From Comamonas sp. 26 (lineage in GTDB: Bacteria > Pseudomonadota > Gammaproteobacteria > Burkholderiales > Burkholderiaceae_C), in assembly GCF_002754475.1 (NCBI RefSeq), contig NZ_PEFL01000001.1, forward strand, positions 1,922,001 to 1,986,000: a stretch of DNA of 64,000 nt. The letters run 5' to 3'. A program made the translations under genes and the position numbers. Of the stretch, positions 1,516 through 30,496 are shown piece by piece. The stretch's first letter is position 1. Every line of letters begins with the position of its first letter. A model generated the notes under the pieces. That model did no database searches. It worked only from the letters and a program-made list of their open reading frames with translations, and was not told where the DNA came from.

Positions 1516-1569
1516 TGACAACAATGTCACCGCGCTGTCCCGATTTTGTTGGGCGCCGATTCCTAAGAT
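1516..1569 (+). promoter_or_regulatory. Regulator box and -10 element before DUF4148 gene A
   Basis: TGACAACAATGTCA (1516-1529) is a near-palindrome of the CusR/CopR type. A third TGTC half-site lies at +20 (1536). A TAAGAT -10 element lies at 1564-1569, 48 bp from the start of the box. The same layout recurs at five other places in the window. The binding protein is inferred to be the OmpR-family regulator at 23127-23819 or a relative. Confidence 0.65.
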
Positions 1570-1641
1570 CAACACATCTTCTCTTCACCTTGATCAAGGC
1601 CCAGGAGATTGTGTTCAACGACTTTCTTAGGAGCTTCAACC

Positions 1642-1986
1642 ATGTCTAAAAGCCGATTCTTCATCTCTTCCACACTGGCAAGTGCTGCAGCAGCCATTGT
1701 CCTAGCGCTTCCGGGTATTGCCTCAGCAGGCTACGAGCATCCGGCAAATAATGAACGAGGCGTGATCGTGCATCCAGAGCATTTCGTGAGCCAAAAAACC
1801 CGAGCTCAAGTCATCGCAGAAACTGAAACTGCGATGAAACAGGGTCGCCTGTCGTACGGCGAAAGCAACTATCCAACCCAGGTACCTAGCGTGGGCTCTA
1901 GCAAAACACGCGCAGAAGTAATCAATGAACTGCTGCGTGAATCACCTTCAGAGCGTGAGGCCCGTCTCCAATCTATGGCGCGCTAA
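1642..1986 (+). CDS. DUF4148 periplasmic protein A
   Basis: This 114-residue protein has a signal peptide (MSKSRFF, hydrophobic core, ending ALPGIASA) and then the DUF4148 pattern: a Tyr/His segment (YEHPANNE), HPEHF, and two repeats of the form KTRAQVIAE and KTRAEVINELL. ATG 1642 is chosen because TAGGAG sits 8 bases upstream and the signal peptide begins there. DUF4148 proteins are small exported proteins, common in Burkholderiales and often next to two-component systems; their function is unknown. A paralogue with the same order of motifs is at 30031-30378, and both have the same promoter layout, which suggests metal-responsive expression. Confidence 0.85.
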   Translation: MSKSRFFISSTLASAAAAIVLALPGIASAGYEHPANNERGVIVHPEHFVSQKTRAQVIAETETAMKQGRLSYGESNYPTQVPSVGSSKTRAEVINELLRESPSEREARLQSMAR

Positions 1987-1997
1987 GCCTTGAGTGT

Positions 1998-2032
1998 GTC
2001 TTAGGTCCACCGTCGTATACTGGGCCTAAGAC
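1998..2032 (+). repeat. Inverted repeat after DUF4148 gene A
   Basis: GTCTTAGGTCC (1998-2008) pairs with GGGCCTAAGAC (2022-2032), an 11-base stem with one G-T-type mismatch and a 13-base loop. No T-run follows, so it may be a weak terminator or mRNA 3' end. Confidence 0.4.
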
Positions 2033-2104
2033 TTAAACCATTTCATTCACCTATTGGCTTTGCTTGACTGACATTTCAGCATCTGGGACTTGTGTTTACA
2101 ATAT

Positions 2105-2127
2105 GGAGGCTTCTTCAGCCTCCTTTA
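2105..2127 (+). terminator. Putative terminator hairpin before the cus region
   Basis: GGAGGC (2105-2110), a 7-base loop and GCCTCC (2118-2123) are followed by TTT. The T-run is short, so termination strength is doubtful. The rest of 2033-2254 shows no convincing promoter or regulator box for the next gene. Confidence 0.4.
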
Positions 2128-2254
2128 GCCAAGGCGACGAATAAGATGCGTGCAGGCCATCTGCCCCCTCTAAGACCTTTGACATCTAGAAAGCGGTTAT
2201 GTCGTGTAGCGTTGACTGCCCAAGGCTGGTAGATTGACTGCACTTCCTGTAATC

Positions 2255-2638
2255 ATGCTGCATCGTCGCATTTACCGCCTGACCACCGCCATCGTGGTGG
2301 TGCTTTCGGTGCTGTTCGCACAGCTGGCGTTGGCGGGCTACGTCTGCCCGCAAGAGGACAGCGTTGAAGCGATGACGGCCAGGATGGAGGCCGGCATGCC
2401 ATGCGAAGGCATGGACCAACAGCAACCGGTTCTGTGTCATCAGTACACCAATGCCCCGGATGTGACCTTCGAAGCAGTCAAACTGCCCGTGGCGTCATTA
2501 CCTGCCATCGTGCAGGTGTTGGAACTGCCGCTAGTGCTCGAATTTGATGCTGCACTTGCAGTGTCCTGGCCCATCACCTTGGAGGTTCGACCGCCTCCGG
2601 ACCCTCTTTTTCTCTCTACTCTCAGACTCAGAGTCTGA
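2255..2638 (+). CDS. Small exported Cys/Met protein upstream of cusC
   Basis: This protein of 127 residues starts MLHRRIYRL and has a single hydrophobic export segment ending near QLALAGYVC. The central part carries Cys and Met residues (YVCPQED, MEAGMPCEGMD, LCHQY) that could hold copper or silver. ATG 2255 is preferred to the upstream TTG at 2234 because it begins directly with a basic n-region. I do not recognise a named family. It lies 76 bases before cusC on the same strand and is probably the first gene of the cus operon. A role in periplasmic copper handling is inference from context and composition only. Confidence 0.65.
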   Translation: MLHRRIYRLTTAIVVVLSVLFAQLALAGYVCPQEDSVEAMTARMEAGMPCEGMDQQQPVLCHQYTNAPDVTFEAVKLPVASLPAIVQVLELPLVLEFDAALAVSWPITLEVRPPPDPLFLSTLRLRV

Positions 2639-2714
2639 TCACTCCGTCGACTGACTGGTGCTGGCATGGCTTGTCCATACGCCGGCGATGCCCTCATTCG
2701 TCCACGGAGTTTCC

Positions 2715-3947
2715 ATGTCCCCTATTTTTTTGCGAGCGGCCTCCCTGGCTGCCGTCTTTCTGCCGGCCGTTGCTGCTGCAGAATCGATTTCATTCGACCA
2801 GGCAATAAGCTTGGCCGTCCAACGCTCCGAAGCAGCCCGCGCAGCCCAGGCGGCGATGCAAGGCTCTGTCCATTCCATCCAGGCTGCGGGTCAGCTGCCA
2901 GACCCCATGCTGCGGGCCGGCATCGACAATTTCCCGGTTACCGGCTCAGACCGCTTCAGCGGTACCCGTGAGTCCATGACAATGAAGCGCATCGGTGTCA
3001 GCCAGGAGTGGCTCTCCGCCGATAAACGAGCCGCGCGCGAAGGTGCGGCTCGTGCAAGAGCCGACCGCGACGCCGTACAAAAAGACATTGCCGAAGCCGA
3101 GGCTCGCCTGCAGGCCAGCATGGCGTATGTCGATGCTTGGTTCGCCACTGAAGCACTCAAGCTAACCACCCAGACCGAACATCACTTGCACGAGGAGCTG
3201 AATGCGGCAAAAAGCCGCATAGCAGCTGCCACAGGCAACAGCGCAGAAGCGTTGCAACTCCTATCCGCCAAAGGGATTGCAGAGGATGAAAGTGAAGAGG
3301 TTCGCCAACAGCAGTCTGCAGCCATGGTCAGTCTGCAACGCTGGATCGGCGTTCTTCCCGACGCTCTCAACAAGCCACCGACCTTCCCGGTTCCCGAGGA
3401 GCGGGACTACGTGGCGAGATATCCAGCCGTCGCTGGCTTAAAAAGCGACGTCGAAATTGCTCGCCAGAATGCGAACGTCGCAGCCAAAGAGCGCTCTCCC
3501 AACTGGACCTGGGAAGTTTCCTACGGCCAGCGCACTGGCTATTCCGATTTGGTTTCAGTCGGCGTCAGCATCCCGCTCCAAATCGCACCAAGCCAGCGCC
3601 AAGACCGCGAAACCTCGGCCAAGCTGTCCATGGTGGACAAAGCAGAGGCTGACCTGACGGAGGGAATGCGCGCAGCCATGGCCGATTACCGCACCTTGAC
3701 TAGCGACGCCGCGCGCCTGCAGCAGCGTATCGAGAGATACCAAGGCTCCGTAGTGACTCCGGCCAGACAGCGCACTTCCGCCGCCCTGGCAGCCTACCGC
3801 TCAAATCAATTGGCCCTGACCGCCGTGTTTGAGGCACGACATGCCGAGGTCGAAGCTCAGAGAAAACTCCTCGCACTGCAGCGTGATTTGGTACGTACGC
3901 AGGCCCAACTAAACCTCAAACCCATCGCTCAGGGAGGTGCCCAATGA
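2715..3947 (+). CDS. cusC: Outer-membrane efflux channel CusC/SilC-like (TolC family)
   Basis: This protein of 410 residues belongs to the outer membrane factor family, with paired helical OEP repeats (SISFDQAISLAVQRSEAARAA near the N-terminus and a second repeat from about residue 250). It forms the outer-membrane exit duct of a tripartite RND metal pump. The ATG at 2715 gives a good signal peptide (MSPIFLRAASLAAVFLPAVAAAES) and has CGGAG about 8 bases upstream; longer starts at 2658 (GTG) and 2688 add no signal-like sequence. The stop overlaps the start of cusB as ATGA, so the genes are translationally coupled. It resembles the short CusC group found with heavy-metal (HME) RND pumps. Silver and copper specificity is inferred from the CusB and CusF partners. 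Confidence 0.88.
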   Translation: MSPIFLRAASLAAVFLPAVAAAESISFDQAISLAVQRSEAARAAQAAMQGSVHSIQAAGQLPDPMLRAGIDNFPVTGSDRFSGTRESMTMKRIGVSQEWLSADKRAAREGAARARADRDAVQKDIAEAEARLQASMAYVDAWFATEALKLTTQTEHHLHEELNAAKSRIAAATGNSAEALQLLSAKGIAEDESEEVRQQQSAAMVSLQRWIGVLPDALNKPPTFPVPEERDYVARYPAVAGLKSDVEIARQNANVAAKERSPNWTWEVSYGQRTGYSDLVSVGVSIPLQIAPSQRQDRETSAKLSMVDKAEADLTEGMRAAMADYRTLTSDAARLQQRIERYQGSVVTPARQRTSAALAAYRSNQLALTAVFEARHAEVEAQRKLLALQRDLVRTQAQLNLKPIAQGGAQ

Positions 3948-5464
3948 AGCGCACAGCACTGGTCACTTCATTGGTTACGGCAGGCGTACTGCTGGCAGCC
4001 GGTGGCTTCTTTATTGGCCGCTTGACCTCCGAAGGCGCTGCCCCCCAGGCCGTAGCCGCCTCGGAATCCAAGGCTCCCACAGGCGAGCGCAAGGTCCTCT
4101 ACTGGCATGACCCCATGGTGCCGGGACCTCGCTTTGACAAGCCAGGCAAGTCGCCATTCATGGACATGCAACTGGTGCCCGTCTATGCGGACGAAGCCAA
4201 TGACACGGGCGTCAAAGTCAGTTCTACGGTGCAGCAGAACCTTGGCATTCGGACCGCGACGGTCAAGCGAGCCGACATCGGCGCGTCGTTCGACGCCGTT
4301 GGAACGGTGCAGTTCGATGAGCGTCTGAGCGTCGCCGTTCAGACCCGTGTTGCCGGCTATGTCGAGCATTTGGCTGTGCGCGCTCCCATGGATCAGGTTC
4401 GCAAAGGTCAGGCTTTGGCCACCATTTTTGCGCCCGAGTGGCTGGGGCCACAAAACGAACTGCTCGCACTCAAGCGTTCAGGTGTGCCCCTGGAACTTAT
4501 TACGGCAACCCGTGAGCGCATGCGCGCCATGTCCATCCCCGCAGAACTGGTACGCAAGAGTGAGGAAACCGGGGTCGCCCAAGCTCGCTATACCTTGCAG
4601 GCTCCGGTAAATGGCGTGGTGACGGAACTTGGTGTGCGAGATGGAGCCCAGGTGTCACCTGGCCTTACGTTGTTCCGTATCTCCGGCCTAGAGAAGGTCT
4701 GGGCCGTGGCTGAAGTGCCGGAAGCACAAGCCGTACGTCTGACGCGTGGCCAGAAGGTCAAGGCCGTTCTGCAAGCCGATGCATCCCAAACCTTCGAAGG
4801 CGAGTTGAAGGAAATCCTGCCACAGGTCAACGCCAACACGCGCACCCTGCAAGCCCGATTCGAGGTCGATAACCGCAGCGGCAAACTGATACCCGGGTTG
4901 CTGCTGCGCCTGCAGGTCGGCGACGCTCCAGCCTCACGCCTGGTCCTGCCTGCCGAAGCCGTCATCCGTACCGGCACCCGTGCATTGGTCATCGTCCGCA
5001 AGGAGTCTGGCAACTTCGAGCCTCGGGAAATCAAGCTGGGCGAGGACTTGGGTGATCAGTTGGAGGTGCTGCAAGGCTTGCGCGAAGGCGAAGAAGTGAT
5101 TGCCAGCGGCCAATTCCTGGTGGACTCGGAAGCGCGGCTCAAGTCAGCCCTGGGAGCCATGGACGCCGATCAATCCCAGCCTTCTTCCGCTGCGACCACC
5201 GAAGCCCCTGGTATCTACCGCGCCGAGGGCAAGGTGGAAAGCATCGATGACGACGGGATCACGATCTCGCATGGTCCCGTACCCAAACTCAAGTGGCCCG
5301 CCATGACAATGAGCTTTGGCAAGGCCGACTCGATGACGCTCACGGGTTTGAAGCCAGGAAATCTGGTGCGCTTCGAGTTCCGAAAAGGCGGGCCCCTAGA
5401 TTGGGAAGTCGTCTCCGTGCAGAAAAGCGGCAGCGACGCAGGAACCACCGGAGGCGCCAAGTGA
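3944..5464 (+). CDS. cusB: RND periplasmic adaptor CusB/SilB with fused CusF domain
   Basis: This is a membrane-fusion protein of 506 residues that links the inner-membrane pump to the outer-membrane channel. The order is an N-terminal anchor (residues 1-30); a heavy-metal-binding domain with the YWHDPM...[15 protein letters not shown] signature (about 53-85); barrel-sandwich and beta-barrel adaptor domains (about 105-390); and a C-terminal CusF-like domain (about 425-497) containing [11 protein letters not shown]. That Trp-Met-Met set is the known Cu(I)/Ag(I) site of CusF. The fusion is known in beta-proteobacterial SilB/CusB. The start overlaps cusC (ATGA) and the end overlaps the GTG of cusA (GTGA). 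Confidence 0.92.
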
Positions 5465-8400
5465 TTGCTACCCTTATCCGTTGGTCCATCGCCAACCGCT
5501 TTTTGGTGTTGGTCGTCACAGCGTTCCTTGTGGCGGCAGGCATCTGGTCGGCATCTCGCACTCCAGTCGATGCACTGCCAGACCTGAGCGACGTGCAGGT
5601 AATCGTCCGCACCACCTATCCAGGCAAACCACCTCAGGTGGTGGAAGACCTCGTGACCTACCCGCTGACCACGACCATGTTGAGCGTACCTGGGGCTAAA
5701 ACCGTCCGAGGCTATTCGTTCTTTGGCGACTCCTTCGTCTACATCCTGTTCGACGACAAGACCGATCCGTACTGGGCACGGTCACGGGTGGTGGAGTATC
5801 TGAACCAGGTGCAAAGCCGCTTACCAGTAGGTGCGACAGCCGCGCTAGGCCCGGATGCCACAGGTGTGGGCTGGGTCTACGAGTACGCGCTGGTCGACCG
5901 CAGCGGCCATAACGATATTGGACAGCTGAGAGCCCTCAACGACTGGTTTCTTAAATTCGAGCTGAAAACCGTTCCGGATGTGGCAGAAGTCGCCAGCATC
6001 GGCGGCATGGTCCGCCAATACCAGGTGGTGCTCGACCCGGACCGGATGCGAGTGCTCGGCATTACGCAGTCCATGGTCGTGCAGGCTCTGCAGAAGGCCA
6101 ATCAGTCGTCGGGCGGTTCGGTAGTGGAAATGGCCGAGACTGAGTACATGGTGCGCTCGCGCGGATTCCTTCAATCATTGGAGGACTTCCGTACTATCCC
6201 GCTCACCCTCAGCGGAGCGACACCTGTGTTGCTGAGAGACGTGGCCACCGTCCAGATCGGCCCAGAAATGCGCCGAGGCATCGCCGAACTGGATGGCGAG
6301 GGTGAAGTCACGGGCGGCGTGGTGGTCATGCGCTCCGGCAAGAATGCCCGTGCCACCATCGAAGCCGTTAAAACCAAGCTGGAGACGCTAAAGCCCAGTC
6401 TGCCCAAAGGCGTTGAGGTGGTGGAAACCTATGACCGCTCCCAGCTCATTGATCGTGCGGTCGACAACCTGCGTGTCAAGCTCCTGGAGGAGTTCGCCGT
6501 CGTCGCCGTAGTCTGTGCCATCTTCCTATTCCACCTGCGCTCCGCGCTGGTGGCCGTTGTAACGCTGCCTATTGGGGTGCTAGCGGCTTTCGGCGTGATG
6601 CACTGGCAAGGCGTGAGCGCGAACATTCTCTCGCTGGGCGGTGTGGCCATTGCTCTAGGAGCCATGGTCGACGCCTCCGTGGTCTTGGTCGAAGCTGCGC
6701 ACAAGCATCTGGAGCACTTTGAAGAACGACATGGACGCACGCCGTCCGTGGCCGAGCGCTGGGAACTGATTGCTCAATCGGCCGTGGAGGTTGGCCCAGC
6801 GCTGTTCTTTTCGTTGCTGGTCATCACCCTGTCATTCCTGCCCGTGTTCACACTGGAGGCCCAAGAAGGACGGCTGTTCTCGCCGCTAGCCTTCACCAAG
6901 ACCTACGCGATGGCTGCTGCTGCGGGCCTCTCGATAACGCTGGTTCCGGTGCTGATGGGATACCTCATTCGCGGGCGCATACCTAAGGAAACTGCGAACC
7001 CGATCAATCGCGGCCTGATTGCTCTCTACCGACCCGCTCTCGAACTAGTCTTGCGCTTCCCTAAAGCAACGCTGCTGGCAGCGGCATTGGCCCTGGCTAT
7101 CACCGCAATTCCGGTCATGCGGCTGGGCGGTGAGTTCATGCCGCCGCTGGACGAAGGCGATCTGTTGTACATGCCCTCGGCGTTACCTGGTATTTCGGTC
7201 TCAAAGGCCGCAGAGTTGTTGCAACAGACAGACCGGCTTATCAAGACAGTGCCCGAGGTTCAGCGTGTGTTCGGCAAGGCAGGACGAGCAGATACTGCGA
7301 CCGATCCTGCGCCGCTGGAGATGTTCGAGACCACGATCCAGTTCAAGCCACGTGAGCAATGGCGTCCTGGTATGACCCCGGAGAAGTTGGTTGAAGAACT
7401 GGACCGGGTGGTCAAGGTTCCGGGTCTATCAAACGTGTGGGTGCCACCGATCCGCAACCGTATCGACATGCTGGCCACCGGCATTAAGAGTCCCGTCGGC
7501 ATCAAGGTCGCCGGACCGGACCTCGCCACCATCGACAAGCTCGCGGCACAGATTGAGTCCGCCGTGCGCGGCGTGCCTGGTGTTGCTTCTGCCTTGGCAG
7601 AGCGCTTGACTGGAGGCCGGTACATTGACGTGGATGTAGACCGACACGCCGCGGCACGGTTCGGCCTTTCTGTGGCTGACGTGCAGGCGGTCATATCCAC
7701 CGCCATCGGCGGTGAGAATGTAGGGGAAGTTATTCAGGGGCGAGAGCGCTTCCCAGTGAACGTACGCTACCCACGCGAAATCCGTGATTCGCTGGAACGC
7801 CTGCGCAAGCTACCTTTCGTGACTGACAAGGGGGCGACCGTCCTCCTGCAGGATGTGGCGAGAATCGCCGTCACGGAAGGACCTCCGATGATCCGCAGTG
7901 AGAACGCACGGCTTTCGGGCTGGGTCTATGTGGACGTGCGTGGCCGGGACCTGCGCTCCGTCGTTCACGACATGCAAGCTTTAGTCGGAAAACAGGTGAC
8001 CATGCCTGCTGGCTATTCATTGTCTTGGTCCGGTCAGTTCGAGTATCTAGAGCGTGCCACAGAGCGCATGACAGTCGTCGTGCCACTCACATTGGCCGTC
8101 ATCTTCATGCTTCTCTACTTACTGTTTCGTAGCGCAAGTGACGCTGCATTGGTCATGGCTGCAGTACCGTTTTCGTTGGTGGGAGGCTTTTGGTTCATCT
8201 GGGCACTTGGCCACGCTGTGTCAGTCGCCTCCGCTGTGGGATTCATTGCTCTGGCCGGCGTTGCCGCGGAGTTTGGCGTCGTGATGCTGGTCTACCTGCA
8301 GAACGCATGGAAACAGCATCTGGCCGCGGGCGAGCCAGACAATGAGGAGACGTTGCTGGCTGCCATTCGCGAGGGCGCAGTGATGCGCGTGCGGCCAAAG

Positions 8401-8631
8401 GCCATGACTGTTGCCGTGGTTATGGCGGGCTTATTGCCCATCCTGATCGGACATGGCACCGGCTCTGAAGTCATGACCCGCATCGCTGCTCCCATGGTCG
8501 GCGGGATGGTCACGGCCCCGCTATTGAGCATGCTTGTCATCCCCGCTGCCTGGTACTTGATCCATCGGAAGCGCCCCATCACTAAACACCACTCTCCGAA
8601 CCTAAAAGCGTCCTCAGTCGAGGCTTCATAA
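5461..8631 (+). CDS. cusA: Cu(I)/Ag(I) RND efflux pump CusA/SilA
   Basis: This is the proton-driven inner-membrane pump of the HME-RND family, 1056 residues from the GTG at 5461. That start overlaps the cusB stop (GTGA) and begins with a typical first helix ([16 protein letters not shown]). Twelve transmembrane helices with two large periplasmic loops are apparent. The fourth helix carries [18 protein letters not shown], the acidic proton-relay region of the CusA group, distinct from the DFGIIIDGAVVIVEN form in the CzcA-type pump at 26657. A C-terminal [18 protein letters not shown] motif is present. The open frame continues upstream inside cusB, but the coupled GTG is the better start. Confidence 0.92.
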
Positions 8632-8654
8632 CCATTTTTTAGAAAGAAAGACCC

Positions 8655-8993
8655 ATGAAAACAACTCACTTACTTGCCGCAGCCCTCACATGTGCAGCGT
8701 TCACAACAGTCCATGCTCAGGACATGAAAATGCCAATGAAGCCAGCTGCAAGTGCATCAGCTTCCACCATGCCCTTAGTTGATGGTGAAGTCCGCAAGGT
8801 TGACATCCAAAAGAACCTTGTCGTCCTGCGTCACGGAGATATTCCGAACCTGGCGATGCCGGCCATGACCATGGGCTTCGAGGTATCCGATAAGAAGATG
8901 CTCGACGGCTTAAAGGTTGGCGATAAGGTGAAGTTCCAAGCAGAGTCGATCAATGGCAAAGCTATGGTCACGGAATTGAAACCGAACCATTGA
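8655..8993 (+). CDS. cusF: CusF-like periplasmic metal-binding protein
   Basis: This 112-residue protein has a signal peptide ending TTVHAQ, a Met-rich linker (DMKMPMKP), and one CusF/EcfE small beta-barrel domain with the AMPAMTMGFEV motif. CusF carries Cu(I) or Ag(I) to the CusCBA pump. The Trp that packs on the metal in classic CusF, and is kept in the domain fused to CusB (KWPAMTM), is replaced here by Met (AMPAMTM). AGAAAGAAAG lies just upstream of the start. It lies 23 bases after cusA as the last operon gene. Its natural terminator appears to have been cut off by the mobile patch that begins at 9014. A broken paralogue is at 32630-32800. Confidence 0.88.
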   Translation: MKTTHLLAAALTCAAFTTVHAQDMKMPMKPAASASASTMPLVDGEVRKVDIQKNLVVLRHGDIPNLAMPAMTMGFEVSDKKMLDGLKVGDKVKFQAESINGKAMVTELKPNH

Positions 8994-10514: not shown

Positions 10515-10996
10515 AAACCCCGCTATCGCACCACCAACTGGAAGCAATACAACGCAGCGCTCAATGCGCGGGGCTCACCGACCATCTGGCTGGACAAAGG
10601 CATGGCTGGTTTGCAGCTGCCAGCGGCAAACGCGGGCACAGCCCGAAGTTCTCCGATGCGGCCATCCAGTACGGCCTGACCATCAAACCTCTTTGGATTG
10701 ACCTTGCGGCAGACCACATGCTTTGTTCTGACACTACTGGCGTTGTCTGGACTGCTGTGACCAGTTCCCGACTTCAGCACGTTGTGCAACCGCTAACGCA
10801 GTCTTACCGGTCCAGCTCCGCCGGCCTGCGCCTACTGGTCGACTCCACGGGCATCAAGTTCCTGGACGAAGCCGAGTGGAAGTGCAAAAAGCATGGGCCA
10901 GAGTGTCGCCGCCAAGTTGCCGAACTGCACATTCGAGCCGCCATCCCCAATCGGTTTACTGAACTGGGCTGCCCGCAGACGGTGGCTGTGGCCTAG
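10515..10996 (+). pseudogene. IS5-family transposase with internal deletion
   Basis: The start resembles IS5-family transposases (RYRTTNWKQYNAAL, then TIWLDKGMAG) and continues in shifted frames through SDAAIQ, YRSSSAGLRLLVDSTGIKFLDEAEWK and KKHGPECRRQ. It then jumps directly to the family's usual C-terminus (IPNRFTELGCPQTVAVA). The block that would carry the central and last catalytic acidic residues is missing. This is an internally deleted, non-functional copy whose right terminal repeat is still present at 11037-11050. A short piece of a similar transposase lies at 32231-32315. Confidence 0.75.
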
Positions 10997-12864: not shown

Positions 12865-12967
12865 TGTTGCAGACTATATTGCGTAACGTGCCTGTCTATA
12901 TATTTGATGTGTCTGGGTAAAAAAGCACTCAGACGTTCTTCAAGTAATTGATCAAGGAATCTTTATC

Positions 12968-16651: not shown

Positions 16652-16708
16652 TTGCTGAGAGGACAACTTCGCTACCATTGAAGCTTCGAAATTTACTAGA
16701 AAAATCCT

Positions 16709-21735: not shown

Positions 21736-23130
21736 TCACGACTGAGATTCAAAGATGTGTGGCGTTGCCTTAGGTGAGGCAGGTAATGAAATCCCAATTT
21801 TTGTGATCCCACTTGAGGATGTTGCAAAGGTGGTACCGCCGTGCATCCGTGCAATAGCTGCAACGATGGCTAATCCTAAGCCGTGATTGAGATTCGCATG
21901 TGCGCGGGACGCATCGGCACGATAGAACCGATCAAACAGGCGTGGCAAATGGATAGGATCAATCTCCGCTCCTCGGTTGATCACCGCGATACCGACGTTC
22001 TCACGATTGCCATCTGAAGTCTCCACTACGCTTTGGGAAATCTCGATAGTGATCGTCGATCCGGGTTCTGCATAGCGTGAAGCGTTGCCTAAAAGATTGG
22101 ATAGTGCACGACGAACCAAACGTGCATCCACAGCAACACTTGCATCTCCATCGATTTGAACTTGAAGGTGCGCTTCTTGAAGCACTGCCTCATGGAATTC
22201 GGCTACTTCTGAGGCAAGTTCTGCAAGACTCACTTTGGCGGATCGCCGCGCTTCAGTACCGCGATCTGCTTGTGACAGAAACAGCATGTCTGCCACGATT
22301 CCCGCCATGCGCTGAAGATCTTCTAGGTTTGAGGCCAAGATATCCTGTAGTTCAACGGCACTACGCGGTTTACGAAGCGCTAACTCACAACTACTGATCA
22401 AGGTGGTCAACGGTGTGTTTAGCTCGTGCGCCACATCAGCATTGAACGCCTCCATTTGTTGATAGGCGATGGCCAGTCGGTCAAGCAATGCATTGAACTG
22501 TGCGATCAATGGTCTTAATTCTTGAGGTTGATGGCTATCATCTAAACGGCGATGTAAGTCTTGCGCAGAGAGGCTTCGCGTTTGATCCACCAGTAGGCGT
22601 AAAGGCTTGAGCCCTATACGAACAAGCCATGTGCTCGCGAATGAGACCAGCAATGCACCCGCCACGGCGGCAATGCCCAGGGTCCAGGCCAGACGATTAA
22701 GCAGTCGGTCATCTGGTCTACGGTCTAGCAACAGGACCGCTTGCATTGGCTGCAGGCCGTCGTTAACTGTCGGAACTTCCACTGAAAATTTGCGAACTGC
22801 AACCCGGTCGTCATCTTCAGGTTGGCGCAAAAGTTCAAATGCACTTTTGCCAGTAGTTGGAACTAAGCGTAGGGAGAGTTCGTCATGCCCCGTGAGAAAG
22901 TCATTGAGCATGTGATTCAAGGCTTCCGGGGAGTGCACACCTCGGCTCTCACTCAGCAGGTGTTCGATGGCTGTTTTTTTGTGATCTAGCGTGTCTTGTT
23001 GGCGTTCCGACAGCGTGACGGAGATCACGAAATAGACAGCAATGCATACAAAACCGAGGCCAACAATGGTTTGCAGTGCTAAGGCGCGGGCTAAACGTCG
23101 AGCTAAATGTGGTGCAGCGGTCTTGCTCAT
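21736..23130 (-). CDS. Metal-responsive sensor histidine kinase (CzcS/CusS/CopS type)
   Basis: This is a 464-residue inner-membrane sensor kinase. The order is transmembrane helix 1 (about 14-38), a periplasmic sensor loop of about 110 residues, transmembrane helix 2 (about 148-170), HAMP (about 172-225), H-box [19 protein letters not shown] with the phospho-His, N-box [15 protein letters not shown]-box [12 protein letters not shown], and G-box [18 protein letters not shown]. The size and H-box match the heavy-metal sensor kinase family (CzcS/CopS/SilS). Its ATG overlaps the regulator stop by four bases (ATGA), so the pair is coupled. It is divergent from czcC. Periplasmic Cu, Ag, Zn or Cd is the expected signal; the exact metal cannot be read. 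Confidence 0.9.
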
Positions 23131-23819
23131 GTTGTGCGAGATTCGAGCACATAGCCCATGCCACGGACGGTGTGGAGGAGATGTTGCTCAAAAGGCTGAT
23201 CAAGCTTAAGTCGCAGGCGTCGGACAGCGACCTCTACCACGTTGGTTTCACTGTCGAAACTCATGTCCCAGACCTGGGATGCCAACTCTGTTCGTGAAAG
23301 CACTTCCCCTTGACGGCGTAATAGAAGGCTTAGCAAATTGAACTCTTTGGCCGTGAGCTCGATTCTTTGTCCCGCCCGCGTAGCCCTACGACGAATCAGG
23401 TCTAACTCTAAGTCAGATAAGCGCAGAGTTGTCGCTTCTGGGGCGGCTTGGGCCAAGCTGGGGCCCCTGCGCCGCAATAGAACATGCAGGCGTGCGACCA
23501 GTTCAGAAAACGCAAATGGCTTCACGAGATAGTCATCGGCGCCACACTGCAGTCCCTTGACGCGATCCTCCACTTGGCCACGGGCAGTCAACATCAGTAC
23601 AGGTGTTTGCTTCGTTTGCCTCAGCGCAGCTAGCACGGCTAGGCCATCGATACCCGGAAGCATGCCGTCAAGCACGATCAGGTCATAGTCCATTTCACTG
23701 GCCAGGTGCAGACCGTCAATACCGTTATGGGCTACATCCACAGTGAAGCCTTCCTCCGCCAGACCCTTTTTTAGGTAATCGGCGAGCTTGATCTCATCTT
23801 CTACAACAAGGATTTTCAT
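23127..23819 (-). CDS. OmpR-family response regulator (CzcR/CusR/CopR type)
   Basis: This 230-residue regulator has a receiver domain ([20 protein letters not shown], phospho-Asp in [10 protein letters not shown] at about residue 51, switch Thr in LMLTARG, Lys in YLVKPFAF) and a C-terminal winged helix ([23 protein letters not shown]...[21 protein letters not shown]). It activates efflux genes when phosphorylated by the adjacent kinase. A CusR-like box (23853-23872) lies just upstream, shared with czcC. It is the best candidate for binding the related boxes before the DUF4148 genes, cptA, eptA and flgB. Confidence 0.92.
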
Positions 23820-23852: not shown

Positions 23853-23910
23853 AAAATGACAAATTTGTAATCCGGCTGTCAGGATGGTGAGGGGAGCACT
23901 TCATTAGAGT
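23853..23910 (+). promoter_or_regulatory. Regulator box in czcC / response-regulator divergent promoter
   Basis: AAAATGACAAATTTGTAATC (23853-23872) is very like the E. coli CusR box. The TGACA unit starts at 23857, a TGTCA half-site lies at +20 (23877-23881), and a TAGAGT -10 lies at 23905-23910, 48 bp from 23857, pointing toward czcC. Autoregulation of the two-component genes from the same site is likely. Confidence 0.72.
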
Positions 23911-23994
23911 GGCAGCGCCCATCCGCTTTCTATTCCTCACTTGGGCAATGTAACGCCCGGCAGACTTCGGATTGCACGGGTAGGAGTTTTAACA

Positions 23995-25272
23995 ATGATT
24001 TCTTCGTCGTCTCATCGCGCTGGCCGAGCAGCTAGTGCGTTGCGTCATGCGTTGTTGTTCACCAGCTTGGCTTTAACTGGCGTGGCAGGCATAGCGCAGG
24101 ACAATCCTGCGAATAAGGCGTCTCTGGCACCACTGACTCTGGACACTGCAGTAGCACGCGCTATCGACCAACACCCTCGTTTACGAGCTGCCCAGCGCGG
24201 TCTTGAGGCAAGCGATGGAGCCGTTCTGCAAAGTAAGGCGAGGCCTAACCCTGCGCTCTCGTATTCACAAGAAGATACGAGCAGAGATAAACGTACCACG
24301 ACGGTTCAATGGACCCAAATGCTGGAAATCGGTGGCAAGCGCGATGCGCGCATGCGTGCTGCAGCACGTGGCCGAGATGTGGCTGAGGCGGAGCTGGATG
24401 CCGCCAAAGCTAATCTTGTCGCAGATGTCCGACTCGCATTCTTCGGGTTGTTAGTCGCACAGCAGCGTGAAGTCCTCGCGGGACAAACGCTTGACATCGC
24501 TCGAAGCGCGCGTGAGGCTGCATCGAAGCGTGTAGCAGCGGGCAAGGCAGCGCCCCTAGAGGCCAACCGGGCCAGTGTCGCTGAGTCCAGTGCAGAGCTG
24601 GAGCAAGCCCAAGCTCAGGCCGCAAAACGAGTGGCTCGTCAACAATTACAGGCCCTTATAGGAGAGGGAGGCCCTGTATTTGGTGATGCGCAAGGCAAAC
24701 TTGACGCGTTGCCTACTGTTCCGGAAATTGGGGTTCTTCAAAGCCGCTTGGAGCAGTCGCCTTCCATTCAGCAAGCTCGCTTCACTGTTGAACAGAGCCG
24801 GGCGACCGCAGATCTGGAGCGCGCAAAGCGAATTCCTGACCCAACGGTGAGTCTAGGTATGAAGCGCGCTCAAGAGACCGGCAATCAACTCGTAGTCGGC
24901 GTCTCCATTCCTTTGCCTGTGCTCGATACCAATCGAGGAAATCAGTTGCAAGCCCTCCGCCTGGCTGACCAAGCTGAAGAGCGCTTGCTAGCTACCCGGT
25001 TGGAACTTCAGTCTCAACTTTATGCGGCGCGAGAGACGCTAGAGGCAAGTCGTAAACAAGCTATCCAACTGTCTGAACGCGTGCTGCCGACTGCACAAGT
25101 CGCCTATGAGGCGGCAAGCAAAGGATTTGCGCTAGGGAAATTCGGCTATCTGGACGTACTTGACGCGCAACGCTCTTTGTTTGATGTACGTAGTCAATAC
25201 CTGGACCAGTTAATGGCCACACATCGTGCTTCGGCCGATATCGAACGCTTGTTGGGCACAACAGACGAGTAA
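23995..25272 (+). CDS. czcC: Outer-membrane efflux channel CzcC
   Basis: This protein of 425 residues is the TolC-family outer-membrane channel of the CzcCBA tripartite pump. A signal region (about residues 1-40, ending VAGIAQ) is followed by two OEP repeats (LTLDTAVARAIDQHPRLRAAQRGLEASDG and the half from about residue 245), with a typical C-terminal SADIERLLG. ATG 23995 is chosen since TAGGAG lies 9 bases upstream; the longer TTG start at 23941 is unlikely. It starts the czcCBA operon, divergent from the two-component genes. No czcI gene is found before it, unlike in Cupriavidus. Confidence 0.9.
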   Translation: MISSSSHRAGRAASALRHALLFTSLALTGVAGIAQDNPANKASLAPLTLDTAVARAIDQHPRLRAAQRGLEASDGAVLQSKARPNPALSYSQEDTSRDKRTTTVQWTQMLEIGGKRDARMRAAARGRDVAEAELDAAKANLVADVRLAFFGLLVAQQREVLAGQTLDIARSAREAASKRVAAGKAAPLEANRASVAESSAELEQAQAQAAKRVARQQLQALIGEGGPVFGDAQGKLDALPTVPEIGVLQSRLEQSPSIQQARFTVEQSRATADLERAKRIPDPTVSLGMKRAQETGNQLVVGVSIPLPVLDTNRGNQLQALRLADQAEERLLATRLELQSQLYAARETLEASRKQAIQLSERVLPTAQVAYEAASKGFALGKFGYLDVLDAQRSLFDVRSQYLDQLMATHRASADIERLLGTTDE

Positions 25273-25294
25273 GTTTTTTGCACAGATCATCAAC

Positions 25295-26643
25295 ATGAAC
25301 GATACAAAACCATCTCCATTTGGGACTCGGCGTACTCAGATTGCAATTGCTGCAATCCTAGTAGTTGGCGCTCTTTCTGCTGCACTAATTCTTCGCAGTG
25401 GTCCAGACAGCAGCAGTGCTAAAGGTGCCGGAGGTCAGGGGCACTCAGAAGCCGCTAGCCACGCAGACACAGAACATCACGGCGAGAAGCAAAGCGGTGA
25501 TCACAAAGATGAAAAAGGACACGCAGATGGTGAGCACCATGATGAAAAAGAGCAAAAGGACGGAGCCAAGTCTGCAGAGAAGAAAAGCGCCGAAGGTGCT
25601 CATGATGACGATGAAGGTCTAATCCAAATGGATTCGCAGCGTATGCAGGCTGCAGGCATTCGAACCGCAGAGGTCGGCGCTGCAACTGTTCGCTCAGTAC
25701 TGCAACTTCCGGGGGAAATACGCTTCAACGAAGACAAAACGGCTCACGTTGTCCCTCGAGTCCCTGGCGTCGTCGACTCGGTACCCGCCAATCTCGGGCA
25801 GGTTGTAAAGAAGGGGCAGTTGCTAGCTGTGTTGAGCAGTGCGGCTGTTTCTGAGCAACGAAGTGAACTTCAAGCCGCTAGCCAACGCTTAGCACTGGCG
25901 CGTACAAGCTATGCCAGAGAGCAAAAGCTGTGGGAGGAGAAGGTATCGGCTGAACAGGATTACTTGCAGGCTCGGCAGACACTGCGCGAGGCAGAAATTG
26001 CCGTTTCAAATGCTCAACAGAAATTGGCAGCCAACGGCGCCGGAGGCGGTGGCGGTGCACTAAACCGATTTGAATTAAGGGCTCCTTTTGACGGAGTGAT
26101 CGTCGAGAAGCATCTCGCCGTCGGTGAAGCTGTTCAGGACACTACCCAAGTTTTCACAATCTCAGACTTGCGCTCCGTTTGGGCTGAAATGAGGGTTGCA
26201 GCATCTGACTTGCCCGCCGTGAAGGTAGGGGAAAAAGCAACTGTCAAAGCGACAGCATTCTCGTCGTCTGCGACTGGGGTGGTTGCTTACGTGGGTGCTC
26301 TGATTGGCCAGGAAACACGTACCGCTCCTGCTCGAATCACTCTAGAGAATCCTGAAGGTGCGTGGCGCCCAGGTCTATTCGTTAATGTGGAGTTGACGGC
26401 CTCTTCGCAACAAGTGCCAGTGGCGGTAGCTTCCAGTGCTATCCAGCGTCTGGACGGCCAAAACAGTGTTGTGTTTGTGCCCGTCAAGGGGGTTTCCGAG
26501 CTCAACCTGTACGCGTTGGTCGCTCAGATCCCCAGACAACAGAAATTCTTGAAGGGCTGAAGTCCGGCCAGTCCTATGTGACTGAAGGCAGCTTCATGCT
26601 TAAGGCCGAACTGGGCAAGGCTACAGCCGAGCACGCACACTAA
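25295..26643 (+). pseudogene. czcB: RND adaptor CzcB, frameshifted near its C-terminus
   Basis: The periplasmic adaptor of the Czc pump has an N-terminal anchor, a His/Asp/Glu-rich segment (about residues 50-110, such as HADTEHHGEK and EHHDEKEQKD) typical of CzcB, then a barrel-sandwich domain, helical hairpin and beta-barrel. The frame stops at 26558-26560 with an atypical tail. The expected end (TEILEGLKSGQSYVTEGSF and KAELGKATAEHAH, stop 26641-26643) is in the +1 frame. Restoring one G in the G5 run at 26488-26492 would rejoin both parts. So about 50 residues are out of frame; the pump may be impaired, or this may be an assembly error. czcA follows after 13 bases. Confidence 0.82.
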
Positions 26644-26656
26644 GCAAGGGCTGCAA

Positions 26657-29600
26657 ATGTTCGAACGAATTATCCGATTTGCCATTGAGCAGCGCTGGCT
26701 GGTCATGGTTGCCGTTCTGGCCCTAGCGGCTCTTGGCGTATACAACTATCAACGCCTCGCTATTGATGCTGTACCTGACATTACCAATGTTCAGGTACAG
26801 ATCAATACGCAGGCCAGCGGCTACTCACCGCTTGAGACTGAGCAGCGAGTCACTTACCCAATTGAAACGGTGATGGCCGGCCTGCCCAATCTGGAACAGA
26901 CTCGCTCGCTGTCGCGCTACGGCCTGTCGCAAGTGACAGTAGTGTTTAAAGATGGCACTGACATCTACTTTGCTCGCCAGTTAGTCAACGAACGCATCCA
27001 ACAGGCCCGTGACAATCTTCCCGCTGGTGTCACTCCCACGCTGGGACCTATCTCTACAGGTTTGGGTGAGATCTATCTTTGGACCGTTGAGGCCGAGGAC
27101 GGTGCAAAGAAGGCAGATGGAACGCCTTACACACCTATGGATCTGCGCGAGATACAGGACTGGGTGATCAAACCGCAACTGCGTAATGTGCCTGGTGTCA
27201 CTGAAATCAACTCTATTGGCGGGTTCGCGAAAGAGTATCTGGTTTCGCCACGCCCAGAACAGCTGGCGTCCTATGGTTTCACTCTTGCTGACCTGGTTGC
27301 TGCGTTGGAACGCAACAATACCAATGTGGGAGCTGGATACATTGAGCGTCAAGGTGAACAATATTTGATCCGTGCCCCGGGTCAAGTCTCTGGCATTGCT
27401 GACATTCGAGAAGTGATCGTGGGTTCGGCTCAAGGCCAGCCCATACGTATTCGTGATTTGGCAGAGGTTGGCTTGGGTCGTGAGCTTCGCACCGGCGCTG
27501 CCACGGATAACGGCCGAGAGGTCGTGCTTGGCACGGTCTTCATGCTGATCGGGGAGAACAGCCGTGTGGTCTCGCAGGCTGTGGCTGCACGTATGGAGCA
27601 GATTAACCGCAGTCTTCCTGAAGGCGTGAAAGCGATCACGGTCTACGATCGCACAAACCTCGTCGATAAAGCCATCGCAACGGTCAAGAAGAATTTGGTG
27701 GAAGGTGCGGCTTTAGTTGTTGTCATCCTCTTCCTTTTCCTGGGCAACCTCCGCGCGGCCCTGATTACAGCGCTGATCATTCCGTTGTCCATGCTGTTCA
27801 CCTTCACTGGCATGGTGCAATACAAAGTCAGTGCCAACCTGATGAGTTTGGGCGCTCTTGACTTCGGCATCATCATTGATGGCGCGGTGGTCATTGTAGA
27901 GAACTGCGTGCGTCGTCTTGCCCACGCGCAAGAAGCACGCGGACGCTCTTTGACGCGCAGTGAACGCTTCCACGAAGTATTTGCTGCAGCCAAGGAAGCG
28001 CGTCGGCCTTTGTTGTTTGGACAATTGATCATCATGGTTGTCTATTTGCCAATCTTTGCGCTCACGGGTGTAGAGGGCAAGATGTTCCATCCCATGGCGC
28101 TGACTGTGGTGATCGCGCTTGCTGGCGCAATGTTGCTGTCCATTACCTTCATTCCTGCGGCGATTGCTCTTTTCATGGGTAACAAGGTTGCGGAGAAGGA
28201 AAATCGCCTCATGGTTTGGGCACGTCGCGTTTATGCACCAGCCCTTCATCGCGTCATGAGAGCTCCTGCAGTTGTTCTGACTGCAGCTGGTGTGGCGGTG
28301 GTGCTAAGCCTGCTGCTGGCAACGCGTCTTGGTAGTGAATTTGCACCAAACCTCAACGAGGGCGATTTCGCCATTCAGGCTCTGCGGATTCCAGGAACCA
28401 GCCTGACCCAGTCCCTTGAGATGCAAATGCAGATCGAGAAAACCTTGAAGAAAGAGTTTCCTGAGATCGACAGGGTATTTGCTCGTACAGGTACCGCGGA
28501 GATTGCCTCTGACCCGATGCCTCCGAACATTTCGGACGGCTACATCATGCTTAAGCCGCAGTCCGAATGGCCGGATCCGGCACGTACACGAGACGATTTG
28601 CTGGCAGCAATTCAGGCCGCCGCAGATCGAGTTCCAGGCAACAATTTCGAGTTCTCTCAACCCATTCAGCTGCGCTTCAATGAGTTGATATCGGGTGTGC
28701 GTAGTGATGTCGCTGTAAAGATTTTTGGCGACGACATGACCGTGCTGGAGAAGAACGCACAAGCTGTCGCAGGCATGTTGCAGCAAATTTCTGGAGCCTC
28801 TGAAGTCAAGGTCGAACAGACCACAGGCTTGCCAATGCTCACCGTGAAAATCGACCGTGAGAAGGCCTCGCGCTATGGTTTGAACATGGGTGACGTGCAA
28901 GACACCATCAGTACGGCACTGGGCGGTCGTGAAGCCGGCACAGTTTTCGAAGGCGACAAGCGATTCGACATTCAGGTTCGCTTGCCGGACGAAGTGCGCA
29001 ATGACATGGAAGCGATAGGACGCCTACCTATCGCGCTTCCACGCGGTACGGATGGCCGACTTGGTTTTGTTCCGCTTTCGGCCGTGGCTAGTTTTGATAT
29101 CGCACCAGGCCCTAACCAGGTGAGCCGAGAGGATGGTAAGCGCCGCATCGTGGTGAGTGCCAACGTGCGCGGACGTGATATTGGATCTTTCGTCACAGAA
29201 GCACAACAACGCCTCGAATCGCTGCAACTGCCTGCCGGCTACTGGACCCGATGGGGCGGAACCTTCGAGAACCTCGAGTCGGCTAGAAAACGCTTGACGA
29301 TTGTTGTGCCGGCAGCATTGCTGATGGTCTTTGTCTTGCTGTTTGCAATGTTCGGCAATGTTCGTGATGGTCTCATCGTGTTCACGGGCATTCCGTTTGC
29401 GCTGACAGGTGGCATCTTGGCGCTCTGGATGCGCGGTATTCCTTTATCCATCTCGGCAGCGATCGGGTTTATCGCGCTGTCAGGCGTGGCAGTGCTCAAT
29501 GGCTTGGTGATGATTGCCTACATCCGATCGCTGCGCGAAGAAGGAAAGCGCCTATATGAAGCAGTCACTGAAGGTGCTTTGACCCGACTGCGGCCAGTTC

Positions 29601-29830
29601 TGATGACCGCGTTGGTTGCATCGCTAGGCTTTGTTCCGATGGCCATCGCAACGGGCACAGGCGCGGAAGTTCAGCGCCCCTTGGCCACAGTGGTGATCGG
29701 CGGGATCTTGTCGTCGACTTTGCTGACCCTTCTCGTGTTGCCATTGCTTTATAGCTTGATACACCGCAAGGATCTCTCCGAGACGGAGGATGAGCAGGTG
29801 TTGGCGTCTACTGAGGAAAAGCCAGCCTGA
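26657..29830 (+). CDS. czcA: Cd/Zn/Co RND efflux pump CzcA
   Basis: This 1057-residue inner-membrane HME-RND pump is driven by proton motive force. Twelve transmembrane helices flank two periplasmic porter domains. The family signature in helix 4, LDFGIIIDGAVVIVENCVRRL, contains the three acidic residues (D, D, E) shown in CzcA to be essential for proton transport and marks the divalent-cation (Zn/Co/Cd) HME group. The N-terminal MFERIIRFAIEQRWLVM and AIDAVPDITNVQVQI match CzcA closely. It is complete and ends with an acidic tail. It is the last operon gene, with a strong terminator downstream. Confidence 0.94.
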   Translation: MFERIIRFAIEQRWLVMVAVLALAALGVYNYQRLAIDAVPDITNVQVQINTQASGYSPLETEQRVTYPIETVMAGLPNLEQTRSLSRYGLSQVTVVFKDGTDIYFARQLVNERIQQARDNLPAGVTPTLGPISTGLGEIYLWTVEAEDGAKKADGTPYTPMDLREIQDWVIKPQLRNVPGVTEINSIGGFAKEYLVSPRPEQLASYGFTLADLVAALERNNTNVGAGYIERQGEQYLIRAPGQVSGIADIREVIVGSAQGQPIRIRDLAEVGLGRELRTGAATDNGREVVLGTVFMLIGENSRVVSQAVAARMEQINRSLPEGVKAITVYDRTNLVDKAIATVKKNLVEGAALVVVILFLFLGNLRAALITALIIPLSMLFTFTGMVQYKVSANLMSLGALDFGIIIDGAVVIVENCVRRLAHAQEARGRSLTRSERFHEVFAAAKEARRPLLFGQLIIMVVYLPIFALTGVEGKMFHPMALTVVIALAGAMLLSITFIPAAIALFMGNKVAEKENRLMVWARRVYAPALHRVMRAPAVVLTAAGVAVVLSLLLATRLGSEFAPNLNEGDFAIQALRIPGTSLTQSLEMQMQIEKTLKKEFPEIDRVFARTGTAEIASDPMPPNISDGYIMLKPQSEWPDPARTRDDLLAAIQAAADRVPGNNFEFSQPIQLRFNELISGVRSDVAVKIFGDDMTVLEKNAQAVAGMLQQISGASEVKVEQTTGLPMLTVKIDREKASRYGLNMGDVQDTISTALGGREAGTVFEGDKRFDIQVRLPDEVRNDMEAIGRLPIALPRGTDGRLGFVPLSAVASFDIAPGPNQVSREDGKRRIVVSANVRGRDIGSFVTEAQQRLESLQLPAGYWTRWGGTFENLESARKRLTIVVPAALLMVFVLLFAMFGNVRDGLIVFTGIPFALTGGILALWMRGIPLSISAAIGFIALSGVAVLNGLVMIAYIRSLREEGKRLYEAVTEGALTRLRPVLMTALVASLGFVPMAIATGTGAEVQRPLATVVIGGILSSTLLTLLVLPLLYSLIHRKDLSETEDEQVLASTEEKPA

Positions 29831-29854
29831 TACAAGTAGTTCAATTCACCTCAT

Positions 29855-29890
29855 AAAAGCCATGGCCTCTAAGGCCATGGCTTTTTTCTT
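29855..29890 (+). terminator. Rho-independent terminator after czcA
   Basis: AAAAGCCATGGCC (29855-29867) and GGCCATGGCTTTT (29873-29885) form a 13-bp perfect stem with a 5-base loop, then a T-rich tail. It ends the czcCBA transcript. Confidence 0.93.
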
Positions 29891-29906
29891 GTAACAATAC
29901 TTAATA

Positions 29907-29959
29907 TGACAACATTGTCACATTCCTGTTGGCAATCTGTCGGTGGGTATTTTCTACAC
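29907..29959 (+). promoter_or_regulatory. Regulator box and -10 before DUF4148 gene B
   Basis: TGACAACATTGTCA (29907-29920) is a perfect TGACAA-N2-TTGTCA palindrome, the canonical CusR/CopR form. A TGT half-site follows at +20 (29927), and the TACACT -10 lies at 29954-29959, 47 bp from the box start. The layout parallels that of DUF4148 gene A at 1516-1569. Confidence 0.75.
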
Positions 29960-30030
29960 TTAAGCCATCTTCTCTGAATAGACGACTTTCTTAGATGGAG
30001 AAGAAAATCAATTCACTTAAGGAGTATTAA

Positions 30031-30378
30031 ATGGCTCACCGTAAAATTTTTGCATCTCTCACCGCCGCAGCCGCAATGGCAACCGTTATGGCAATGCCTG
30101 GCGTCGCAGTCGCAGATACGTACTGGCACCCCACAAATAATGAGGCTGGTGTAAAAGTATACCCCGAGCATTTCAAGAGCTCTCGAACCCGTGACCAAGT
30201 TCGTGAAGAAGCAGCGAATGCCGTACGAGAGGGCGGGGACAATCGACTGCGCAGCGGAAACTACCCAGCTGAGGCGAAAGGTACGGAGCCCGAAAAGACA
30301 CGTCAGCAAGTTATCGACGAACTGATTAAAGAAACCCCTTCGCAGCGAGATGCTCGTAACCAAGCTATAGCTGGGTAA
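30031..30378 (+). CDS. DUF4148 periplasmic protein B
   Basis: This 115-residue exported protein has a signal peptide ending PGVAVA and then the DUF4148 pattern: YWHPTNNEAGVKVYPEHF, SRTRDQVREEA and EKTRQQVIDELIKETPSQRDAR. AAGGAG lies about 9 bases before the ATG. It is paralogous to the protein at 1642-1986 with the same motif order (TNNE/ANNE, PEHF, KTR). It sits between the czcA terminator and its own terminator, so it is a single-gene unit under the CusR-like box. Function is unknown; co-expression with metal efflux is inferred. Confidence 0.88.
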   Translation: MAHRKIFASLTAAAAMATVMAMPGVAVADTYWHPTNNEAGVKVYPEHFKSSRTRDQVREEAANAVREGGDNRLRSGNYPAEAKGTEPEKTRQQVIDELIKETPSQRDARNQAIAG

Positions 30379-30396
30379 TCAGTAATATTTTCTTGG

Positions 30397-30431
30397 CGTG
30401 GATTCGTGGTAACACGATCCACGTTTTTTTT
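30397..30431 (+). terminator. Rho-independent terminator after DUF4148 gene B
   Basis: CGTGGATTCGTG (30397-30408) pairs with CACGATCCACG (30413-30423) around a short loop and is followed by eight T. It isolates the DUF4148 gene from eptA, which has its own box only 12 bases further on. Confidence 0.9.
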
Positions 30432-30442
30432 CGCTCAAAAAA

Positions 30443-30496
30443 TGACAAAAATGTAATCGGAATGTCATCGTGCAGATCAGATTTTATCTCTAGGAT
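30443..30496 (+). promoter_or_regulatory. Regulator box and -10 before eptA
   Basis: TGACAAAAATGTAATC (30443-30458), preceded by six A, carries a TGTCA half-site at +20 (30463-30467) and a TAGGAT -10 at 30491-30496, 48 bp from the box start. It is nearly identical to the boxes before flgB and czcC and places eptA in the same putative regulon. Confidence 0.72.

Follow-up and report, generated by a model that had tools for sequence, protein, structure and literature searches.

A metal-regulator-type box at a fixed −10 distance precedes efflux and phosphoethanolamine transferase genes in a Comamonas metal-resistance island

Results

The island and its boxes

We analyzed a 64-kb window (contig C1, 1922001-1986000) of the 4.7-Mb Comamonas sp. 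26 genome, and we describe a putative regulator box that recurs there before metal efflux and phosphoethanolamine transferase genes. Positions are window coordinates, and all the evidence comes from DNA and protein sequence analysis together with published work; other stretches are cited by L numbers and other genomes by G numbers. The island in the first half of the window reads DUF4148-A, cusCBAF, a CptA-like gene, czcE, a MerR-family gene and a Zn/Cd-type P-type ATPase gene (labelled cadR and cadA), flgB, PAP2, czcSR, czcCBA, DUF4148-B, and eptA.

The box is defined as TGACA-N4-TGTMA-N6-TGTC and the −10 element as TANNNT, with offsets counted from the box start. The first-pass annotation had claimed five boxes with a −10 element 47-48 bp from their start, and all five were found in place. 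On the plus strand, TGACAACAATGTCACCGCGCTGTC (1516-1539; −10 TAAGAT, 1564-1569) heads DUF4148-A and then the cusCBAF-type operon, TGACAAATTTGTAATCCGGCTGTC (23857-23880; TAGAGT, 23905-23910) lies in the czcR-czcC intergenic region, TGACAACATTGTCACATTCCTGTT (29907-29930; TACACT, 29955-29960) precedes DUF4148-B, and TGACAAAAATGTAATCGGAATGTC (30443-30466; TAGGAT, 30491-30496) precedes eptA and is kept in six other near-copy loci. On the minus strand, TTACTAAAATGTAATCTGGATGTC (12805-12828; TAGAGT, 12780-12775) precedes the CptA/EptC-like gene; its core at 12828, TTACTAAAATGTAATC, has two mismatches. The third half-site at +20, claimed for every box, departs from TGTC at 29907, which has TGTT. In all five promoters TANNNT begins exactly at +48, while the sequence between the box and the −10 element differs from promoter to promoter. 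The box and its fixed −10 distance, as observed in the window, are confirmed. Tandem boxes, TGTCAGAAATGTAATC (16594) and TGTCAAAAATGTAATC (16636), spanning 16594-16651 on the plus strand, precede flgB with TACCAT at 16673-16678. A weak candidate box, TTACAAAAGTATCATGTTGCAGAC (12851-12874, plus strand), precedes czcE with TATATT at +48; its score of 14.8 falls below the clear range.

The genes behind these boxes were identified by profile searches. DUF4148-A (1642-1986, plus strand; Pfam PF13663) is a small secreted protein whose start is an ATG within the open reading frame (ORF) 1609-1986; DUF4148-B (30031-30378, plus strand) matches the same family. The cusCBA-type resistance-nodulation-division (RND) efflux genes and cusF (2658-8993, plus strand) match Pfam OEP, HlyD/CusF, ACR_tran, and CusF, and TIGR00914. 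The gene at 10956-12716 (minus strand) encodes a 586-aa phosphoethanolamine transferase with a Sulfatase domain (PF00884). We call it CptA/EptC-like because it scores below the NCBIfam CptA cut-offs (NF007933 / NF012179, 212.8 versus 404 and 190.2 versus 900) and is related to EptC, its closest solved sequence (5zzu, E=1.3e-40). Its start, first placed at 12809, was corrected to the ATG at 12716, since the longer ORF begins within the box, upstream of the −10 element. The eptA gene (30570-32213, plus strand) encodes a lipid A phosphoethanolamine transferase (NF028537, 557.5 bits, cut-off 500) that aligns to solved EptA (PDB 5fgn, E=6.1e-97) over residues 17-546; Comamonas testosteroni ATCC 11996 has a 100% identical protein and C. 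terrae a 93% identical one. The czcCBA operon (23941-29830, plus strand) is anchored by CzcA (TIGR00914, 1736 bits), with czcC and czcB named by position. Divergent from it on the minus strand lie czcR (23127-23819; TIGR01387, 316.2 bits, cut-off 279.2), a heavy-metal response regulator of OmpR/PhoB type, and czcS (21736-23130; TIGR01386, 352.3 bits, cut-off 292.55), a heavy-metal sensor kinase. Also present are a czcE-family gene (12968-13369, plus strand; PF16986), a lone flgB-like gene (16709-17092, plus strand; PF00460) followed by PAP2 (17226-17966; PF01569), and an IS3-type transposase gene (20015-21535) between PAP2 and czcS. Just upstream of the window, in L025, lie a multicopper oxidase gene, copRS, a third DUF4148 gene, and another RND system; the CopS encoded there carries a CusS sensor domain.

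Statistics and specificity in the host genome

Allowing up to one mismatch, TGACAN4TGTMA matched 18 times in the window versus 5.9 ± 3.3 times in shuffled sequence, and none of 100 shuffles reached as high (palindromic sites were counted on both strands, in window and shuffles alike). The full three-part box without mismatch occurs three times in the genome, each time inside the window. Across 64 offsets, +48 was filled in all five promoters and every other offset in at most one; the chance probability of a TANNNT in five of five at one common offset of 64 is about 5e-9, a post hoc value that gives a rough order only. Out of about 128,000 window positions, each site omitted in a leave-one-out matrix scan ranked between 2nd and 5th. 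The five boxes score 27.2-30.5 with the matrix built from them; in dinucleotide-shuffled sequence, a single position of 3.84 million reached 18 and none 20.

A position-matrix scan of the host genome had been proposed as the test of the motif, with equal frequency in unrelated promoters as the outcome that would speak against it. With up to two mismatches there were 41 box matches, and the reversed-pattern control gave 18. Of the 41, 27 fall in neither the window nor the long stretches; these were read as 26 short stretches (L079-L104), and none scores above 19.0. Scores above 20 outside the window were found at DUF4148-C (25.0) and at copA adjoining copR (24.4) in L025, at a fourth DUF4148 gene in L027 (25.4), at an RND operon beside a second regulator, CzcR2, in L022 (21.3), and at an MdtC-like RND operon in L026 (25.3). 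Thus the matches above 20 with a −10 element precede metal or DUF4148 genes and one MdtC-like RND operon, and in its own genome the motif is not equally common in unrelated promoters.

Two side observations concern these sites. All four DUF4148 secreted proteins of the genome (1642-1986; 30031-30378; L025:11378-11722; L027:9709-10128) are headed by a box with the −10 element at +48. In L026, a metal-type box at 10030 (minus strand), with TAGAGT at +48, stands before L026:8369-9964, ahead of a multidrug RND operon resembling MdtC/MuxB; the homologous outer-membrane gene of two further genomes of the family (L110, L128) has such a box as well. This arrangement suggests that multidrug efflux may come under a metal regulator there.

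More than one regulator adjoins the boxes

The box was originally likened to the CusR/CopR site, and the likeness holds: its core matches the CopR consensus reported for Pseudomonas, CTGACAn5GTAAT. At czcC and eptA the agreement extends over all of TGACAn5GTAAT, with A replacing the leading C, while the cptA box has TTACT as its first half and the DUF4148 boxes have GTCAC as their second. The P. aeruginosa CzcR motif, GAAACn6GTAAT, is not matched: reading the sites, we find GTAAT at czcC, eptA, and cptA, and GAAAC is absent. We also considered two strict box classes, TGTAATC for CzcR and TGTCAC for CopR. This split does not discriminate and was rejected, since TGTCATC is found at czcC in six related loci (L029, L030, L161, L163, L164, and L166) and, in other genera, at DUF4148 boxes linked to copS.

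At least three regulators of the CzcR/CopR family (CzcR, CzcR2, and CopR) are encoded in the genome, each with adjacent boxes, and the response regulators of the window (316.2), L022 (318.9), and L025 (347.6) all pass the TIGR01387 (cztR_silR_copR) cut-off of 279.2. This bears on the proposal that a single regulator, the CzcR of 23127-23819, controls all boxes. In its favour, the core and the −10 distance are alike at all five sites, and CzcR has its own site at 23857. However, CzcR2 adjoins an identical 16-mer (L022:10157), and copA/copR and DUF4148-C have boxes beside CopR. In the sister island L165 the 1516-type box has copRS immediately on one side and DUF4148-cusCBAF on the other, and in three other genomes (L108, L117, and L118) it is next to copS. 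We therefore consider control by CzcR alone unlikely. Synteny ties the 23857 box to czcR and, in L165, the 1516-type box to copRS; box 1516 thus goes with a copper operon of copRS type. CopR, CusR, and CzcR are reported to share sites with different outcomes (PMC11195947, consulted in part); cross-regulation is therefore expected, and we assign no single regulator. CzcR is the likelier driver of the czcC, eptA, cptA, and flgB promoters and CopR that of the DUF4148-cus promoter, with cross-binding expected. The first-pass annotation had pictured a one-regulator metal regulon joining efflux and phosphoethanolamine transferases. The joining stands in the form of a shared, spacing-constrained box at the efflux, eptA, and CptA-like promoters that is conserved in sister islands; the single regulator is not supported in the form proposed.

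The eptA link is specific among the loci sampled and recurs

We checked how far the eptA box extends by taking the best 30 loci of each search (family, genus, order, and class). The family and genus searches shared two loci and gave 58, two of which were scored on short upstream sequences of 81 and 142 bp. Scored with a matrix that left out the eptA site, eight of these loci reached 24.3-29.3, all in Comamonas czc islands, and the other 50 stayed at or below 8.8. Seven of the eight, the window included, are near-copies; the eighth is the diverged island of G219 (EptA 50%), whose box leads into DUF4148-eptA. The second eptA of the host (L131) has no box (best score 8.4). In the order and class samples, in which two genes (in G087 and G128) recur, one of 60 scored 25.0 and the others at most 12.9. 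That one is a 95% relative of eptA on the Cupriavidus plasmid pMTS3, where a small ORF that looks secreted, eptA, and PAP2 follow a box (25.9, TACACT at +48), with czcE-family and P-type ATPase genes adjoining. The small ORF, which has no Pfam match, occupies the place of DUF4148 before eptA.

Among 14 plasmid regions read, a box precedes eptA in five. Four Pseudomonas metal-resistance plasmids (pKF715B, pXWY, and those of L046 and L047) carry TGTCA-N4-TGTAATC about 245 bp before eptA. L040, an ambiguous case, has a box about 940 bp upstream of eptA with a short ORF between, and no box was found before eptA on L037, L038, L042, L043, L044, L045, L048, and L169. On the Xanthomonas plasmid among these (L043:2223-10911), eptA and dgkA closely follow RND and CDF (cation diffusion facilitator) genes on the same strand; this arrangement is best read as operon-style coupling of efflux to lipid A modification without the box.

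The Comamonas, Cupriavidus, and Pseudomonas EptA groups share 36-42% identity, no more than the 42% between the window EptA and the second EptA of the host. When the presence of a box (11 rows) is mapped onto a tree of 129 EptA rows, no fewer than three changes are required, and a tree constrained to make the boxed EptA monophyletic was rejected (p-AU 2e-62, the approximately unbiased test on a quick tree, with the group named after the fact). Three changes could also be one gain and two losses, as the program warns; we prefer separate gains because box-free genes surround each boxed group. On this tree the box is best explained as having been placed before eptA more than once. Judged from these samples, the eptA link is specific and recurrent.

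The other boxes were followed into the sister islands. The cptA box is present in all four fetched, identical in three and changed by one base in L165, and the flgB tandem boxes are retained in four of four. In G219 (L130), flgB has a single box core with TATCAT at +37, the same offset as in the window. The lone flgB-like gene itself recurs in metal islands of Comamonas (window 16709-17092; L130:11113-11496), Pseudomonas (L047:16110-16523), and Cupriavidus (L168:20684-21106).

These comparisons also bear on whether the eptA and cptA boxes are passengers, copied during island assembly and bound yet irrelevant to expression or fitness. The islands are near-identical between species, so conservation among such close copies is weak evidence of selection. 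Against the passenger reading, the spacers differ between promoters, and a comparison of the 93% with the 100% variant of eptA shows unchanged half-sites but varying flanking bases and −10 interior. Distantly related eptA genes on Cupriavidus and Pseudomonas plasmids are boxed too. Moreover, terminator-like hairpins stand before and after DUF4148-B (the second, at about 30398-30433, was seen by eye and missed by the terminator scan), so that eptA needs its own promoter. We judge the passenger explanation quite improbable. It is very improbable, in our view, that the box is a mere modulator and that zinc control of eptA and cptA runs through ColRS: ColRS is the established zinc route to P. aeruginosa eptA (PMC9952513) and P. 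putida cptA (PMC4074579) in the sections consulted, but the box and its −10 element form an activator-type promoter of the efflux class.

The −10 distance separates metal promoters from Pho boxes

Searching 399 family genomes for the exact box, we obtained 28 matches in 25 genomes, three of them in the own genome, and the reversed-pattern control gave one. Among the 25 non-own matches, seven have a −10 element at +48, eight at +36 only, and ten at neither on the matched strand. The +48 group comprises czcE followed by an RND outer-membrane gene (L106), DUF4148 next to copS (L108, L117, and L118, the last two being one and the same promoter sequence), an RND outer-membrane gene resembling that of L026 (L110, L128), and a PstS-family gene with −10 elements at both +48 and +36 (L114). 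In the +36-only group, the ORF start reads as pstS in seven of eight, and a hidden Markov model (HMM) confirmed four of these; the eighth (L125) reads out of frame. One of the ten, L121, has on its opposite strand a box followed by TAGAGT at +47, ahead of a DUF4148 gene.

The seven pstS promoters (L107, L109, L112, L119, L122, L123, and L126) thus carry the same three half-sites with the −10 element at +36. Taken by itself, the box does not distinguish metal regulators from PhoB; the −10 distance does, at 47-48 versus 36. That PhoB, itself of the OmpR family, controls eptA and cptA is barely credible, despite the shared half-sites, because the pstS −10 elements lie at +36 and those of the metal promoters and the five window sites at +48 (L114 having both), and the window neighbours are metal genes; on the −10 offset, a PhoB identity of the window boxes was rejected.

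Discussion

We regard it as probable that regulators of the CzcR/CopR family activate efflux jointly with eptA, the CptA-like gene, flgB, and the genes of small secreted proteins. From the observed anatomy, spacing, specificity, conservation, and recurrence, we infer a course of binding, activation, pairing of metals with promoters, and benefit to the cell. The box would be an activator site of the CzcR/CopR/CusR group of heavy-metal response regulators, which have the OmpR/PhoB fold. Excess periplasmic Zn/Cd/Co would act via CzcS, or Cu/Ag via CopS, which we take to be the metals of those sensor families. The phosphorylated regulator would then bind the half-sites TGACA-N4-TGTMA-N6-TGTC, ending just upstream of a poor −35, and recruit RNA polymerase to the −10 element 48 bp from the box start, or one helical turn closer at flgB. 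One layer of the response would be metal export (czcCBA, cusCBAF). The second, switched on simultaneously, would be envelope remodelling: the products of eptA and of the CptA-like gene would attach phosphoethanolamine to lipid A or core, joined by the DUF4148 proteins and flgB. The added positive charge should leave less metal bound at the outer membrane. Metal exposure probably changes the cell surface too.

Several observations weigh against this explanation or limit it. The scoring matrix was trained on the five window sites themselves. The flgB tandem boxes, which the first-pass annotation had placed correctly at 16594 and 16636, have no −10 element at +48; theirs lies at +37 counted from the second box. 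In relatives, the distance is 47 at the DUF4148-B promoter of G445 and the DUF4148 promoter in L121. The P. aeruginosa CzcR motif, GAAAC-N6-GTAAT in the part of the literature consulted, has a first half unlike that of the window box; the CzcR-bound czcN and czcP promoters of C. metallidurans have no match to the window matrix; and the main text of the P. aeruginosa CzcR chromatin immunoprecipitation sequencing (ChIP-seq) paper has no occurrence of eptA. Of the eight Comamonas island loci, all but one are near-copies (93-100% protein identity). The Pseudomonas plasmid eptA sites score just 16.7, owing to TAATGC as the −10 element at +48. Finally, the remaining eptA genes examined have no such box, nor does the metal plasmid L043, which carries eptA.

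The link between metal and polymyxin resistance is usually put down to co-selection of neighbouring genes. A common activator site would mean co-induction, an immediate and testable metal effect on lipid A. We advance only tentatively, as a proposition close to evenly balanced, that lipid A phosphoethanolamine transferases, mcr-like ones included, have been recruited by metal-efflux response regulators again and again, each time independently, via a box at a fixed −10 distance, and that islands such as that of the mcr-12 plasmid are metal-inducible, not constitutive. If so, metal pollution would directly induce a polymyxin-type surface modification, beyond co-selecting it. The shared box also offers an approach to two unexplained features of metal islands, the lone flgB and the DUF4148 genes. 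For practical scans, box plus −10 at +47/48 is a sequence rule that finds regulon members and sets them apart from Pho boxes, which CopR-like motif scans without a spacing rule may include.

Parts of this picture are already known from the sections of the literature consulted, namely the shared CopR/CusR/CzcR site with cross-regulation (PMC11195947) and the zinc induction of eptA and cptA via ColRS, a different system (PMC9952513, PMC4074579). Among the matches listed in the open-access literature, we did not find a CzcR/CopR/CusR site reported at eptA or cptA. The Pseudomonas cross-regulated regulon resembles the island in its OmpR-family metal regulators with one common site, in its efflux and periplasmic targets, and in the CopR consensus CTGACAn5GTAAT, the core of the czcC and eptA boxes save for the leading C. 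It differs in that eptA and phosphoethanolamine do not occur in the main text of that paper, while the window has sites at eptA, the CptA-like gene, and flgB, and in that the −10 element of five window promoters lies at +48. ColRS likewise senses metal through a two-component system and induces eptA or cptA with other envelope genes; it is another regulator, and the available sections do not describe sharing with RND metal efflux. The closest published arrangement is mcr-12 on Pigmentiphaga litoralis pPLE30.2 (PMC13373230), where czcCBA and cusRS of a metal island flank this EptA-type gene. In the portions consulted, however, its authors call expression constitutive and propose no shared regulation, and their reverse-transcription quantitative PCR (RT-qPCR) section covers polymyxin B exposure only.

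The czc region of C. metallidurans pMOL30 (L168; PMC9045368, PMC10127602, PMC11647585, each in part) shares with the island czcCBA with czcRS, czcE, and a lone flgB beside a P-type ATPase gene; unlike the window island, it has no eptA annotated in the 27 kb read. There, flgB is listed as up-regulated by a metal mix, and flgB-czcP is a predicted operon in which czcP, with two CzcR sites, is CzcR-dependent (PMC9045368, PMC10127602). The best pMOL30 match to our matrix (17.4) is a box at czcJ (L168:17953, minus strand) that keeps the −10 spacing of the window boxes, with its −10 element at record positions 85904-85899, 7 nt before the published transcription start site TSS_85892 (PMC9045368). Because the −10 element of its box agrees with a mapped transcription start, czcJ is a candidate direct target of a CzcR/CopR-type regulator.

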